From the IMG/VR virus record IMGVR_UViG_3300032214_000566, positions 1-64,000 of that record: DNA of 64,000 nt; one strand, written 5' to 3'. Below are positions 2,804 through 61,801 of the stretch, one piece after another. The translations under genes were made by a program, and so were the position numbers. The notes under the pieces are model-generated. The model searched no databases. It saw only the letters and a program-made list of their open reading frames with translations, and was not told the origin of the DNA. Numbering within the stretch: position 1 is the first letter of the stretch; every line of letters starts with the position of its first letter. The stretch comes from a virus.

Positions 2804-3166
2804 ATGGAAAATAAAGTTTGTACTCAATGCGGTGAATTAAAATCTATAAATGATTTTTACAAAAAAAAGGGGTTCAATAATCCTCAATCAAAATGTAAAT
2901 CATGTTTTAATAAATACTGTGTCGATAGATGGGTAAATAAAAAAATAAGTTACATCATCTATAAAGGTTCTGAATGTGTTGACTGTGGTTTATCATACCC
3001 AAAAGAACCCTATGTAATATTTGATTTTCATCATCGTGACCCAAATGTTAAGGAATTTGATTGGTCAAAGCTCAGATTAAAATCGGAATCTAAAATAAAA
3101 GAGGAGATTGACAAATGTGACCTCCTCTGTTCTAATTGTCATAGGAAAAAACATTTCCTTTTGTAG
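2804..3166 (+). CDS. HNH endonuclease (homing-type)
   Basis: 120 residues. An N-terminal zinc knuckle (C6-x2-C9, C31-x2-C34) is followed by an HNH core: CVDCG (58-62), FDFHHRDP (74-81) and CSNCHRKKH (109-117). These are the metal and catalytic residues of free-standing HNH nucleases that nick or cut DNA and spread between phages. It lies on the plus strand inside a minus-strand tRNA region, and its TAG stop overlaps the 3' end of tRNA-Arg, a common site for homing-endonuclease insertion. Confidence 0.85.
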   Translation: MENKVCTQCGELKSINDFYKKKGFNNPQSKCKSCFNKYCVDRWVNKKISYIIYKGSECVDCGLSYPKEPYVIFDFHHRDPNVKEFDWSKLRLKSESKIKEEIDKCDLLCSNCHRKKHFLL

Positions 3167-3237
3167 TCCCGCCAGGATTCAAACCTGGAATCTACTCATT
3201 AGAAGTGAGTTGCATTATTCAATTATGCTACAGGACC
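3164..3237 (-). tRNA. tRNA-Arg (anticodon TCT)
   Basis: Cloverleaf on the minus strand. The anticodon stem ACTCA/TGAGT encloses CTTCTAA, so the anticodon is TCT. The acceptor GGTCCTG/CGGGACT has wobble pairs, and the T-arm is CCAGG-TTTGAAT-CCTGG. It decodes AGA, the natural Arg codon of an AT-rich genome. Confidence 0.9.
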
Positions 3238-6462: not shown

Positions 6463-6489
6463 GTTTTAATTATAGTGAAGTTTTCGCAT

Positions 6490-6518
6490 AAAAAAAGGGA
6501 TCGATTCACATCGTCCCT
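6490..6518 (-). terminator. Terminator of the giant non-coding RNA
   Basis: Minus strand GGGA-CGAT, loop GTGA, ATCG-(A)-TCCC with a single bulge, followed by seven T. It fixes the 3' end and strand of the RNA described next. Confidence 0.88.
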
Positions 6519-7440
6519 AAATTTTTTTTAACTTAATAAGTTGTACCTAAAAAGAACGCTGAGATTACACGTTTCAGTGAGAAAACTTTAGAAGGATTAT
6601 TGGTTCCCTTCGTATCCACCATCTTTTGAATGGTATTCCTCAGTGACGATTATTTAGGTGAATCACTCCTTGAGGTAACAGTTACTCTCTTATTACTTGA
6701 CTCTCTTCGAGGATGCCTCCCCAACTCTTCCTTGCGGGAATAGAGGTGTTTGGTAAGAATATCGTCAAACTTGCGGTTTAATCGATGCAATGAACGGCTC
6801 ATTACTATGTAGTCACCTTTCACTGTTACCTGACGGACACTTTTGCTTTACGTTATATCATGAATTTTACTTCCTAATTGTAAAATAAAGTTTTTGTGTC
6901 GTGGATTGGAGAAGTAGTGGTCCGTCACGGGCTTCGCTATCTTTTGAACAACGAAATACTCAACTACTCCTTGAAATGTCCCCATTTCCATATTTTAAGA
7001 CCACTTCGAGATTAATCCCTTGGTAGAGATTTATCAAGGACAATGTCAGCACCACCTGTTTGTTGTCATACCTTTCGGTTTTAAGTACCCTTTGATATTG
7101 GAACACGCAATTATGAAATCGGATAACTTCATTTTTTGCAATATTCCTACGGGTTATTCCTATTGGTGTTCCCACCTCAATCAGACGACCCACATCGCCA
7201 AATCACTTAACCAGTTTCCCTACAGCGTTGCCCTCGGTACTCAAGGTTAAGCGGTATCCCGCTTGTATACTCGACCTCGATTACTCAAGGCGCAAACCCA
7301 ACACACTAGAGGGTTCACTTTATCCTACTTTCGTAGTTTATTTTATGGACTATATACGGCCCAAGATCTTCATGTTAACACTTTAAAGAAAGGGGGGTTA
7401 ATCTCTCACTTATCTTTGTTAATCACTTCAATCGATTATA

Positions 7441-7456
7441 ATTTCAAAGAACTTTT
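7441..7456 (-). promoter_or_regulatory. boxA-like antitermination element
   Basis: AAAAGTTCTTTGAAAT close to the 5' end of the giant RNA resembles the GTTCTTTGA boxA-like leader element that I associate with Bacteroidota rRNA operons, where NusB/S10 binding keeps untranslated RNA free from Rho. Such an element would explain how about 980 nt can be transcribed without translation. Confidence 0.45.
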
Positions 7457-7478
7457 CGGACTTTTCCGATTTGTTTTA

Positions 7479-7509
7479 CAAAGTTACGATATTTGTTTTG
7501 TTATATCAA
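7479..7509 (-). promoter_or_regulatory. Bacteroidota-type promoter of the giant RNA
   Basis: On the minus strand TTG (7507-7509), 20 nt, TAACTTTG (7479-7486). It has the spacing and sequence of the host primary promoter, and no coding start follows it. Confidence 0.8.
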
Positions 7510-7674: not shown

Positions 7675-7852
7675 ATTTAGAGTTTTAAACGGTTAATAAA
7701 TAAGGTTAGTTATTAGGACGTTTCCTAATTGTTTAACAAATCTAATACTAATATTTCGATTTGTCAAATTTATAATAAAAAATTTGTTTGATTTTTTTGT
7801 TAATAGTAATAAATATACCGTAATACACCAAAAAACAAAGAAAAATTAAAAA

Positions 7853-30947: not shown

Positions 30948-31763
30948 TCACATATATTCAAACAAATCTGAACATTCATTTCTTAATTTACGAAGTGCCT
31001 TTTCTTTAATCTGACGAACACGTTCTTTTGTTAAGGAAAAATCGGAACCAATATCTTCCAATGTACGTGGTGTGCCGGTAATTCCATAGTAATCTTCTAC
31101 TATCATACGTTCTCTCTCGTCAAGGACCGACATAATCCCCATCATTTTTTCTTTTAATACGTCCTGTGTTGAGAATACTTCGTCGGGTGATTCGACATTT
31201 TCATTTTTAATGATGTCAATTAGTGTGTCTCCGTCTTCATTGATGTGCATATCCAAGTCAATCATTCTTGGTAGGTTTGCGAATTTGTCTGACAAATCTT
31301 TGCTCGTCTTTTCATTTTCACGTTTTTCTTTTTGCATGTCTTGTACAACGTTGACCGGGAGACGGATGGTACGTGAATTATCATTTAATGATTGTAAAAT
31401 AGATTGTTTAATCCACCAAACAGCATATGAAATAAATCTGTTTTTCTTTGACCAATCAAAGTTCTTAATGGCCTTCATCAAACCAAAATTACCTTCAGCA
31501 ATTAAGTCTGATAAATCAACTCCTTGATTTTGGTATTTTTTAGCAACTGTAATAACGAAACGTAGGTTACCTTCTAACATTTCTTTCTGAATCGCATCGA
31601 TTTCTCTTTGTGAGCAATCTTCCGATATGATTCTTTCAGCTAACACCTTTTCTCTTTCAGGTGTCATAACTTTTAATTTTCTAATATCCTTTAAATAAAT
31701 TTGAATTTCATCCTGATTTAAAGGGTTAGTTGATTTGATTTCCTCCATTTTTTCTCGTTCCAT
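30948..31763 (-). CDS. Phage sigma-70 family RNA polymerase sigma factor
   Basis: 271 residues. Region 1.2 (IQIYLKDIRKLKVMTPERE), 2.1-2.2 (NLRFVITVAKKYQNQGVDLS, DLIAEGNFGLMKAIKNFD), 2.3-2.4 (RFISYAVWWIKQSILQSL), 3 (RTIRLPVNVVQDMQ) and 4 (TLEDIGSDFSLTKERVRQIK) are complete. It is thus a full group 2-type sigma close to Bacteroidota RpoD, unlike the short T4 gp55. It probably directs host polymerase to phage promoters. A second ATG at 31748 (MEEIKST) is possible. The gene overlaps its upstream neighbour by 38 nt. Confidence 0.95.
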   Translation of the reverse strand: MEREKMEEIKSTNPLNQDEIQIYLKDIRKLKVMTPEREKVLAERIISEDCSQREIDAIQKEMLEGNLRFVITVAKKYQNQGVDLSDLIAEGNFGLMKAIKNFDWSKKNRFISYAVWWIKQSILQSLNDNSRTIRLPVNVVQDMQKEKRENEKTSKDLSDKFANLPRMIDLDMHINEDGDTLIDIIKNENVESPDEVFSTQDVLKEKMMGIMSVLDERERMIVEDYYGITGTPRTLEDIGSDFSLTKERVRQIKEKALRKLRNECSDLFEYM

Positions 31764-58810: not shown

Positions 58811-61801
58811 CTAAGAACACTCTACACTAACGTCGATAGAAATGTCTAAGTTTAATGTGTTATTCATAAAATCATCATAACAAGTAGTGTTGTAAATAGT
58901 TAGAACACCACCCACAAATGAGTAATCTAATCCTTGTTGGTATAAAGTCGATAATGACGAGTCAATGGCATTTATTACCATATCATAAGTTAAAGATGAC
59001 CCATCTAACTGACTCAAGGCGTTTGTACCGTCACCAATAAAGAATTGTTGATTAATTAATGTTTGTTCAACACCTGTTATATTATTAATCATAGATAGCT
59101 CAACATACCAAGTCGATACTACCGTATTGTTATTACATTGTGCAGGGTCTATACCTTGTCCAACGATTGTATTATATATTTCAGTACCTAAAATAGTTAT
59201 AGGGTCAAAGAAAGGTAAAGTACTTGTTATTGATTGGTCATTACAATCTAAAGCACCTGCGGAACCTTCAAATGAAGACGTAATTTCAGGATTAGGTCCG
59301 ATATCAGTACACCCTCTTTGTCTTTTCCATGCCACTTTTTGTCTATGGAATATAGAATTATCCATTTTTTGACCTGTGTTCCATATTGTGGTTGCAGGTA
59401 CGAATTGTTCTGTTAATCTAACCCAATAATCACCAAGACCCAACGTATAATCTATCATTTTTTGATAGGTAAAGTCATTAAATGGTAAGGTCGTGTTTTG
59501 AGTAGTTTCTAAATACTTCCAAAAAATATATTGTAAGGTTGGATATCCACCTGTTTTACCGTCAAAAATATATTGTCTATTTCTAACATTAATTAAATTA
59601 TTATAGAATGACTGTGCAAACTCCAAGAATGTTTTTTGATTTGGTTTAGGATTAATGTATGTCCAATCAACATTACCAGGTGATGGGTATGGTGATGTAA
59701 GTCCTGTGTTTGGTATAGGATAACCATATTTAGAGGACATCTCCCATATATCATATGTAATACCTTGACCCATGTTAAGGTATAATTCCATATTTTTAAC
59801 GTTAATCGCTAAACTATCATTTTCAATTAAATAATTTGTTTCAGATAAATTTTGAGTACTTTTTCTTTTACCCACATCTTCAACTTTCCAAGATTTTACA
59901 TTGTCTATTGTTCTGGTTAACCCATAACCTAAATCTAAAAAAGGAAACTTAATGTACCTATCCAAATACTCTTGACCGTATGTGAATGGTAATAGTTGTG
60001 AACTAAATACAGGTATTTGTGAATTAAGTTCAGATGTTGAAAATTGTATAACTTCAGGTGATCTATGCTCGGGAGTCGCCTCAAACCAACCCGCACCTTT
60101 TTGGAAAAAATAATCCTCCGTGAACACGGGACTTTCAGGATACCCATCAAGTAATGAAATAGCATAATCAGCAAGTGTAGTTCCAACTGACACTAATCTA
60201 GAATTAGCAGTAAATCCTGTATATGTTACACCTTGTATTGAGAATGTGTTTGCAGTATCATAAGATGTTATCTTATCTATTTTAGTTCCTCCAGAAATTT
60301 GAGCAAATTGATTAGTAAATTCGTCTACTGAAATTTTTTGGTCAGCAATATAGATATACTCATTGAACTCTATTAGTTGCTCGGGAGCACCTATTAACCT
60401 TAGAATATATTCTATAGATTGTCTTGTACCTTTTGATTTATAAAGGAATGCAGAATTTAAAATTAGATTTCTAAAATACTGATAATTAATCTCAGCAGGT
60501 GTTTGTTCTTTAGATTGACCAGGATATATCACATCATTAGTTGTGGTATATATTGTGTTTAATAAATCGTCATTCGTGATTGGTGAAATTGCAGTTTTCC
60601 AACCTAAAGTTTCCGCCAAATTTGAGAGTAACTCCGATGGTATATCATTACCCACAATATAATTAACCGAATTCATGTTCGCTAATGAGTCTATAAATTT
60701 CTTGGTCTCGTCAAAACTTCTACCATAAATCTGTAAAACCTTTTCAATTTTTTGGTCAGGTGTGTCGAACTCTTTTAAACTTCCTGAAGTTAAAAATCTA
60801 CTTAATAAATTTGTTTTATATTCATCAAGTTTTTCGGCAATTGTTTGTATATTTGTTAAATAATTATCAAAGTTAGCCGTAGAAATGTCTAAATTCCAAA
60901 AACCATCAGTTTGCCAAGTTAATAATTTGGTTATCATAATGTAGTTACCGTCACTGTCGTAGTCAGGGTATTGGAACTTAGATGTGTATTTAGGATAAAC
61001 GTTTCTATTTAAAATGTAATCTTCAACCTCATCAAATGAGTCTTGGAATATCTGTTCAGTAACTAAATTATTAGGTTTTAATAAAATAGATTGTACTGTA
61101 TTTGATGACGTAAACGGTTTCCCTTCAACGATTATATTAATCGTACCAGCAGTTAATGATGTTGTAGGTTCAAAATCCGTTATTTTATATTCCGTTGTTA
61201 AGTCATTAGTATATAACGAATAACTTCTAAAATATGTCGTTAAATTTCTGTATTTATTAACTTTATACGGTCTTACCTGAATGTTAAGTGTCGCGTTTGT
61301 AGTATAATCAATATCAAAAGGATTTTTAAAAAATTGTACATCAACATCAAAAGAAGTTTCATTTTCAACCGGATCGTAAACAATATTAAATGCGGTATAT
61401 CCCGTACTCAAACTATAATTCTGTTGGTCTATTTGTATTGCCGCAGGAAAATTATTAATTACTTTAGTTATGGATGCCGATAATCTTTTTTGTAATGAAC
61501 CATAAAGAGAAAAACTTGTAATTTGTGCTAAATCAAAATTAGGGTAAACTTTAAAGTTTTTTTCTATTATTTTTTTAGCTTCAGCAACATCAGTTATATT
61601 TAAAGTATCTAACGTATAGGGATCAGAAAACACACCAGTGTCAAATGTTCTATCTATTTTTTCGTATATAGCACTTGTAAATTGAAAATTACCTTGTGTC
61701 AGACCTCCTCCATTAACGACTTGGAACCCTACCAAATCATCGGAAAACGTACCTGACCCTACAGGTGCCGGTGATGGACATATGTATTTAGTAACTGCCA
61801 T
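58811..61801 (-). CDS. Large tail/baseplate protein with P2 gpI-like segment (996 aa)
   Basis: DIPSELLSNLAETLGWKTAI followed by NLILNSAFLYKSKGTRQSIE and YILRLIGAPEQLIEFNEY matches the gpI-type baseplate signature (L-x-x-LA-x-x-LGW ... KGT-x-x-SI-x-x-IL-x-x-G). The rest is Tyr/Asn/Thr-rich and beta-type. It would sit at the baseplate rim where fibres attach. Confidence 0.76.
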   Translation of the reverse strand: MAVTKYICPSPAPVGSGTFSDDLVGFQVVNGGGLTQGNFQFTSAIYEKIDRTFDTGVFSDPYTLDTLNITDVAEAKKIIEKNFKVYPNFDLAQITSFSLYGSLQKRLSASITKVINNFPAAIQIDQQNYSLSTGYTAFNIVYDPVENETSFDVDVQFFKNPFDIDYTTNATLNIQVRPYKVNKYRNLTTYFRSYSLYTNDLTTEYKITDFEPTTSLTAGTINIIVEGKPFTSSNTVQSILLKPNNLVTEQIFQDSFDEVEDYILNRNVYPKYTSKFQYPDYDSDGNYIMITKLLTWQTDGFWNLDISTANFDNYLTNIQTIAEKLDEYKTNLLSRFLTSGSLKEFDTPDQKIEKVLQIYGRSFDETKKFIDSLANMNSVNYIVGNDIPSELLSNLAETLGWKTAISPITNDDLLNTIYTTTNDVIYPGQSKEQTPAEINYQYFRNLILNSAFLYKSKGTRQSIEYILRLIGAPEQLIEFNEYIYIADQKISVDEFTNQFAQISGGTKIDKITSYDTANTFSIQGVTYTGFTANSRLVSVGTTLADYAISLLDGYPESPVFTEDYFFQKGAGWFEATPEHRSPEVIQFSTSELNSQIPVFSSQLLPFTYGQEYLDRYIKFPFLDLGYGLTRTIDNVKSWKVEDVGKRKSTQNLSETNYLIENDSLAINVKNMELYLNMGQGITYDIWEMSSKYGYPIPNTGLTSPYPSPGNVDWTYINPKPNQKTFLEFAQSFYNNLINVRNRQYIFDGKTGGYPTLQYIFWKYLETTQNTTLPFNDFTYQKMIDYTLGLGDYWVRLTEQFVPATTIWNTGQKMDNSIFHRQKVAWKRQRGCTDIGPNPEITSSFEGSAGALDCNDQSITSTLPFFDPITILGTEIYNTIVGQGIDPAQCNNNTVVSTWYVELSMINNITGVEQTLINQQFFIGDGTNALSQLDGSSLTYDMVINAIDSSLSTLYQQGLDYSFVGGVLTIYNTTCYDDFMNNTLNLDISIDVSVECS

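Follow-up and report, generated by a model that had tools for sequence, protein, structure and literature searches.

The locus addressed here lies between positions 6490 and 7474 of a 64,000-nt stretch of viral DNA (IMG/VR record IMGVR_UViG_3300032214_000566, positions 1 to 64,000; hereafter, the window). A first-pass annotation, made from the sequence alone, had described it as a structured noncoding RNA and had left its family open between GOLLD, ROOL, and a new class. The question it raises is which RNA is encoded and in what kind of phage. GOLLD is among the very few natural RNAs known to form protein-free cages. According to the analyses below, the minus-strand interval 6490–7474 is, with high confidence, a complete GOLLD from a large freshwater phage that probably infects Bacteroidota.

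Relatives were collected from IMG/VR by means of motif patterns and the neighboring DHH-SET gene, and GOLLD was confirmed in many of the records. It was carried by 34 of the 37 records having the conserved motif, and by 18 of 38 and 12 of 20 further records, mostly picked via the DHH-SET gene. More than 100 related GOLLD loci were gathered in this way, many of them in large phages. The results are based on an alignment of 44 sequences, on 34 sequences for the 5′ domain, on 97 distinct cores, and on 102 loci for the promoter. The conserved motif, searched as an exact and strict pattern, was absent from a genome collection of 84,980 species; GOLLD was not found in the six Bacteroidota genomes in which it was sought, and a search for plasmid copies yielded none.

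Family Identity and the Conserved 3′ Domain

The proposed Infernal check with Rfam models gave a match to GOLLD (RF02032) at 6971–6556 of the minus strand, with 323.9 bits against a gathering cut-off of 150 and an E-value of 5.3e-92 (cmscan, Rfam 15). As the match spans the full model (positions 1–416 of 416), the interval 6556–6971 was assigned to the 3′ domain of GOLLD, its universally conserved half. The size of the RNA and its phage and tRNA context had suggested either GOLLD or ROOL; the first was borne out (E 5e-92), whereas the Rfam covariance models gave no match to ROOL even at E ≤ 1. At this threshold, the only hits reported for the window RNA were GOLLD and a sub-threshold sRNA match. 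The latter, to FopS at 6487–6559, scored 23.2 bits against a cut-off of 56, comprised the terminator region alone, and was rejected.

Two hairpins sharing a CGCAA loop had been noted at 6728–6740 and 6767–6779. Both are present, with CCGCAAG loops, at 6725–6742 and 6765–6782 of the minus strand, and both are part of the Rfam GOLLD consensus. The twin CGCAA loops were kept in most of the 44 relatives, with stems that vary; the exceptions were UCCCAAG, at the 6765–6782 hairpin, and loops of the GUCGAA type. In the hairpin at 6705–6725 (minus strand, GGCA loop), the central GC was kept among the 44 relatives, again with a varying stem. This GC-containing loop and the A-rich loops are conserved among relatives, and the hairpin is a candidate for the self-kissing loop L21a described for GOLLD (PMC12286853), under a putative mapping of positions to env-38 numbering.

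Within the 3′ domain, a variable linker (6848–6909, minus strand) showed low conservation in the 44-sequence alignment; it is unpaired in the Rfam consensus and its alignment confidence is low. In the solved GOLLD homologue, the linker is disordered and located within the cage (PMC12286853). None of the 97 distinct cores was overlapped by a tRNA, and none was found in the window linker.

The 5′ Domain, Its Covariation, and Possible Domain Exchange

The 5′ domain (6972–7358, minus strand) lies outside the Rfam model and comprises about 20 helices with covariation support. Its consensus fold, obtained from 34 related phage RNAs, contains 107 pairs, 71 of which showed compensatory changes on both sides, and 97.7% of the 5′ domain cells were paired. 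None of 500 shuffles reached any measure of this pairing, and no slid control came near, so that the suggested test for covariation came out clearly positive.

A covariance model built from the first 217 positions of the domain scored 181.8 bits upstream of GOLLD in the 634-kb uncultured phage LR745206 and 67.0 bits (E 3e-17) upstream of that in Acinetobacter phage Ab15; it also matched in most other collected GOLLD loci. Like other members of the family, the window RNA thus has a 5′ domain that precedes the 3′ domain as a separate and less conserved unit. In the GOLLD cage, cap and ring are formed by the two domains (PMC12286853). Since homologues of its 5′ domain lie upstream of other GOLLDs, the window RNA, as judged from sequence homology, carries both the cap- and the ring-forming domain.

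The distances between relatives in the 5′ and 3′ domains agreed only loosely (Spearman 0.32). Loci L069 and L086, for example, were 7.8% apart in the 5′ domain and 34% apart in the 3′ domain, and other such pairs exist. Discordant distances are the pattern expected of modular exchange and suggest that the cage domains have been exchanged between phages, which would accord with the separate GOLLD domains seen by cryo-EM.

The same independent divergence, together with the known lower conservation of GOLLD 5′ regions (PMC12286853), could also be read to mean that the GOLLD 3′ domain is linked here to another type of 5′ domain than the one in env-38, in which case the cage cap would differ. However, the same 5′ domain was found in phages that differ widely, one of them gammaproteobacterial, which suggests a common type and makes a distinct one improbable. 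A GOLLD composed of both family domains is the reading followed below.

Predicted Transcription Unit, Neighborhood, and Coding Potential

The predicted primary transcript of the GOLLD gene is about 985 nt long (6490–7474, minus strand), as supported by the promoter, the terminator, the Rfam match, and covariation in both halves. A promoter of the Bacteroidota sigma-A type was read directly at 7479–7509 of the minus strand, with TTG (7509–7507), a 20-nt spacer, and TAACTTTG (7486–7479). The start was predicted near 7474 from the position of TTG-N20-TAACTTTG, because the −7 box TAnnTTTG, the flavobacterial sigma-A consensus, sits at −12 to −5 (PMC9723704). The intrinsic terminator (6490–6519, minus strand) consists of the GC-rich hairpin AGGGACGAT-GTGA-ATCGATCCC followed by seven T residues, the last at 6490. 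It was not called by a simple terminator scanner and was read directly from the sequence; a hairpin and T-run, varied in sequence, follow the RNA in nearly all relatives. Both elements had been named in the first-pass annotation and were confirmed, the promoter also by its recurrence in relatives. The statement that they face each other was loosely worded, as both are oriented in the same direction on the minus strand.

The claim of a structured noncoding RNA of about 980 nt was likewise upheld: the predicted fold was better than that of 20 out of 20 dinucleotide shuffles (z = −3.35). The 5′ leader (7359–7474, minus strand) was poorly conserved in the 44-sequence alignment and contains a short hairpin near its start, also present in the whole-RNA fold. 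The whole-RNA fold also placed columns 31–37, at the 5′ end, in a long-range pairing with columns 807–813 of the 3′ domain; this pairing hardly varied and was dropped.

Upstream of GOLLD, on the same strand, lie a 48-aa ORF (7674–7528) and the gene of a 750-aa DHH-SET protein (10105–7853), whose DHH-like N-terminal part remained below the Pfam cut-off and whose SET domain is near the C-terminal part. The DHH-SET gene is the 5′ neighbor of GOLLD in many relatives, and relatives of its product are numerous in large lake phages. The 48-aa ORF has its own promoter-like site, TTG-N20-TAGATTTG, at 7767–7737 of the minus strand. Downstream, an ORF for an FkbM-type methyltransferase starts 28 nt past the terminator. 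Eight tRNA-like genes share the strand of GOLLD, the nearest 3.3 kb downstream: an array of six tRNAs (8–587), a lone tRNA-Arg(tct) (2512–2583), and a tRNA-like gene of 40.5 bits with an unclear anticodon (3163–3237). The locus, contained in an IMG/VR virus record with tRNAs downstream, fits a family that is encoded by phages or prophages and often located near tRNAs.

A tRNA was present within 3 kb in 36 of the 97 distinct related cores. In 13 relatives (L276, L278, L279, L306, L280, L319, L267, L316, L330, L288, L307, L268, and L271), a tRNA-Met(CAT) gene begins 9–25 nt 3′ of the core. Because of this short distance, GOLLD and tRNA-Met probably form one transcript there, processed at the 5′ end of the tRNA. 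Unlike in these relatives, the window GOLLD ends at its own terminator.

The same-strand methyltransferase ORF just past the terminator would also suit a cis-acting leader or antisense element regulating its neighbors, namely this gene and the 48-aa ORF upstream. Yet the RNA's own promoter and terminator are kept in relatives, the downstream content varies (including the 13 cases of tRNA-Met), and an elaborate fold of about 985 nt far exceeds what a leader needs. Such a role is considered very unlikely.

A protein-coding signal, named in the first-pass annotation as the finding that would speak against an RNA gene, was absent. No gene extends across 6490–7474; the longest same-strand ORF (77 aa, 7193–6960) was intact in only 16 of the 44 relatives, and five further candidate ORFs were intact in 1–7 of the 44. 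No excess of substitutions at third codon positions was found for the ORFs of the interval among the 44 relatives. With ORFs of 41–77 aa that are not conserved and with compensatory pairs instead of third-position bias, there is hardly any chance that the interval is a degenerate protein-coding region. The chance of a giant structured RNA of a new class, with no relationship to GOLLD or ROOL, is equally negligible: the 5′ half (6972–7474) does lie outside every Rfam model, but the full-length GOLLD match of the 3′ half excludes such a class. The window RNA has both GOLLD domains and is not a new class, because its 5′ domain is homologous to the region upstream of other GOLLDs, in the 634-kb phage as well as in the Acinetobacter phage.

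Promoter Recurrence and Host Inference

Of 102 related GOLLD loci, 84 carried a TTG-N20-TAnnTTTG promoter 440–660 nt upstream of the core, compared with 0.1 expected from shuffles. In the window, a Shine–Dalgarno-like site was detected for only 1 of 36 large genes, and Bacteroidetes naturally lack such sites (PMC6847099). The Bacteroidota-type promoter together with the near absence of Shine–Dalgarno sites strongly indicates a host among the Bacteroidota. The phage-encoded glutamine synthetase (13051–11921, minus strand) has its nearest bacterial relatives mostly in Bacteroidota (about 50–54% identity); as these are mostly, and not only, Bacteroidota, it was set aside as a weak host marker. 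The structural protein at 61801–58811 had no relative among deposited phages and gave no host clue. The phage also encodes a sigma-70 family factor of 271 aa (31763–30948, minus strand), which may itself read TAnnTTTG promoters.

Between the promoter boxes at 7509–7479 (minus strand), the spacer contains the dyad GATAT-N10-ATATC, and related GOLLD promoters carry GACA...TGTC, GTCT...AGAC, or GATA...TATC. The dyad arms tended to covary: for 46 unique promoters, 1000 arm shuffles reached the values of the three inner pairs in 2, 0, and 4 cases, respectively. When near-duplicates were removed (20 promoters left), the covariation was weaker, with 124, 9, and 42 of 1000 shuffles reaching them. The dyad may be an operator. 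That it is a lineage-specific operator, placing GOLLD of Bacteroidota phages under a dedicated, co-evolving phage regulator, is a speculative and rather doubtful extension.

Probable Cage Assembly and Possible Function

GOLLD cages are homo-oligomers held together by kissing loops and A-minor contacts. GOLLD env-38 was resolved by cryo-EM as a 14-mer cage with D7 symmetry, and GOLLD RNA rises during lysis (PMC12286853). By analogy, the window RNA likely assembles into the 14-subunit cage. Transcription by a host-type sigma-A polymerase, or with the phage sigma factor encoded at 31763–30948, would yield a free-standing RNA of about 985 nt ended by the intrinsic terminator. Each of the two domains would fold on its own, and loop contacts between copies would close them into an RNA cage resembling the env-38 14-mer, with the variable linker inside.

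Published proposals for the cargo include tRNAs, ribosomes, metabolites, and stress proteins. The RNA could act as an abundant accessory cage during infection, holding or sequestering tRNAs or ribosomal particles; such translation-related cargo is the best guess as to content and benefit to the phage, and a tentative one. The benefit may be conditional, since GOLLD in a Lactobacillus brevis prophage is dispensable for phage production, as quoted in PMC7567579.

Comparison with Known GOLLD Members

With the lake and marine GOLLD members, including env-38, the window RNA shares the whole 3′ domain, the twin GCAA loops, the variable linker, a separate 5′ domain, the phage and tRNA context, and a length of about 800–1000 nt. 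In contrast, it differs in its probable Bacteroidota phage host and sigma-A promoter, its length of about 985 nt, a linker without tRNA, and a terminator, not a tRNA, directly after the RNA. ROOL is also a giant phage RNA near tRNAs that forms an RNA cage (8-mer), but it shows no sequence or model match to the window RNA.

The GOLLD family itself, partly defined by lake sequences, was already known. A survey (Nature 2025) counted 806 nonredundant GOLLDs, and names beginning with Bacteroid- were absent from its main text. The first-pass annotation had regarded a member from a Bacteroidota phage as notable. The origin is supported by the promoter and translation signals, whereas the notability is less than claimed, because the family is partly lake-defined, a related copy is deposited (LR745206), and the window GOLLD belongs to a large set, with dozens more in IMG/VR. 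The new elements are the probable host group, the promoter and ends, the covariation of the 5′ domain, the suggested domain swapping, and the possible covarying promoter dyad. A probable host phylum, a promoter, and a terminator can now be given for many lake GOLLDs, and more than 100 relatives have been collected, together with the 5′ domain, which lies outside the Rfam model. Expression, knock-out, and cage-assembly tests are thus possible in genetically tractable flavobacteria.

Of the deposited phages, LR745206 has a 3′ domain of 287 bits in addition to its 5′ domain, and one of its genes codes for a DHH relative of the protein encoded next to the window GOLLD. It differs in that no TTG-N20-TAnnTTTG match occurs in the 750 nt upstream, tRNAs adjoin GOLLD, and the DHH gene is located elsewhere in the genome; GOLLD is unannotated there. 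Phage Ab15 also has both domains (218.9 bits for the 3′ domain), but its GOLLD is strongly diverged, lies within a tRNA array, lacks such a promoter, and belongs to a phage of a gammaproteobacterial host. The Ab15 copy (L150, 4907–5269) is unannotated as well, and small ORFs are annotated over it as "hypothetical protein". Similar unannotated GOLLD matches were observed by blastn in Acinetobacter phages AM24 and Herod.
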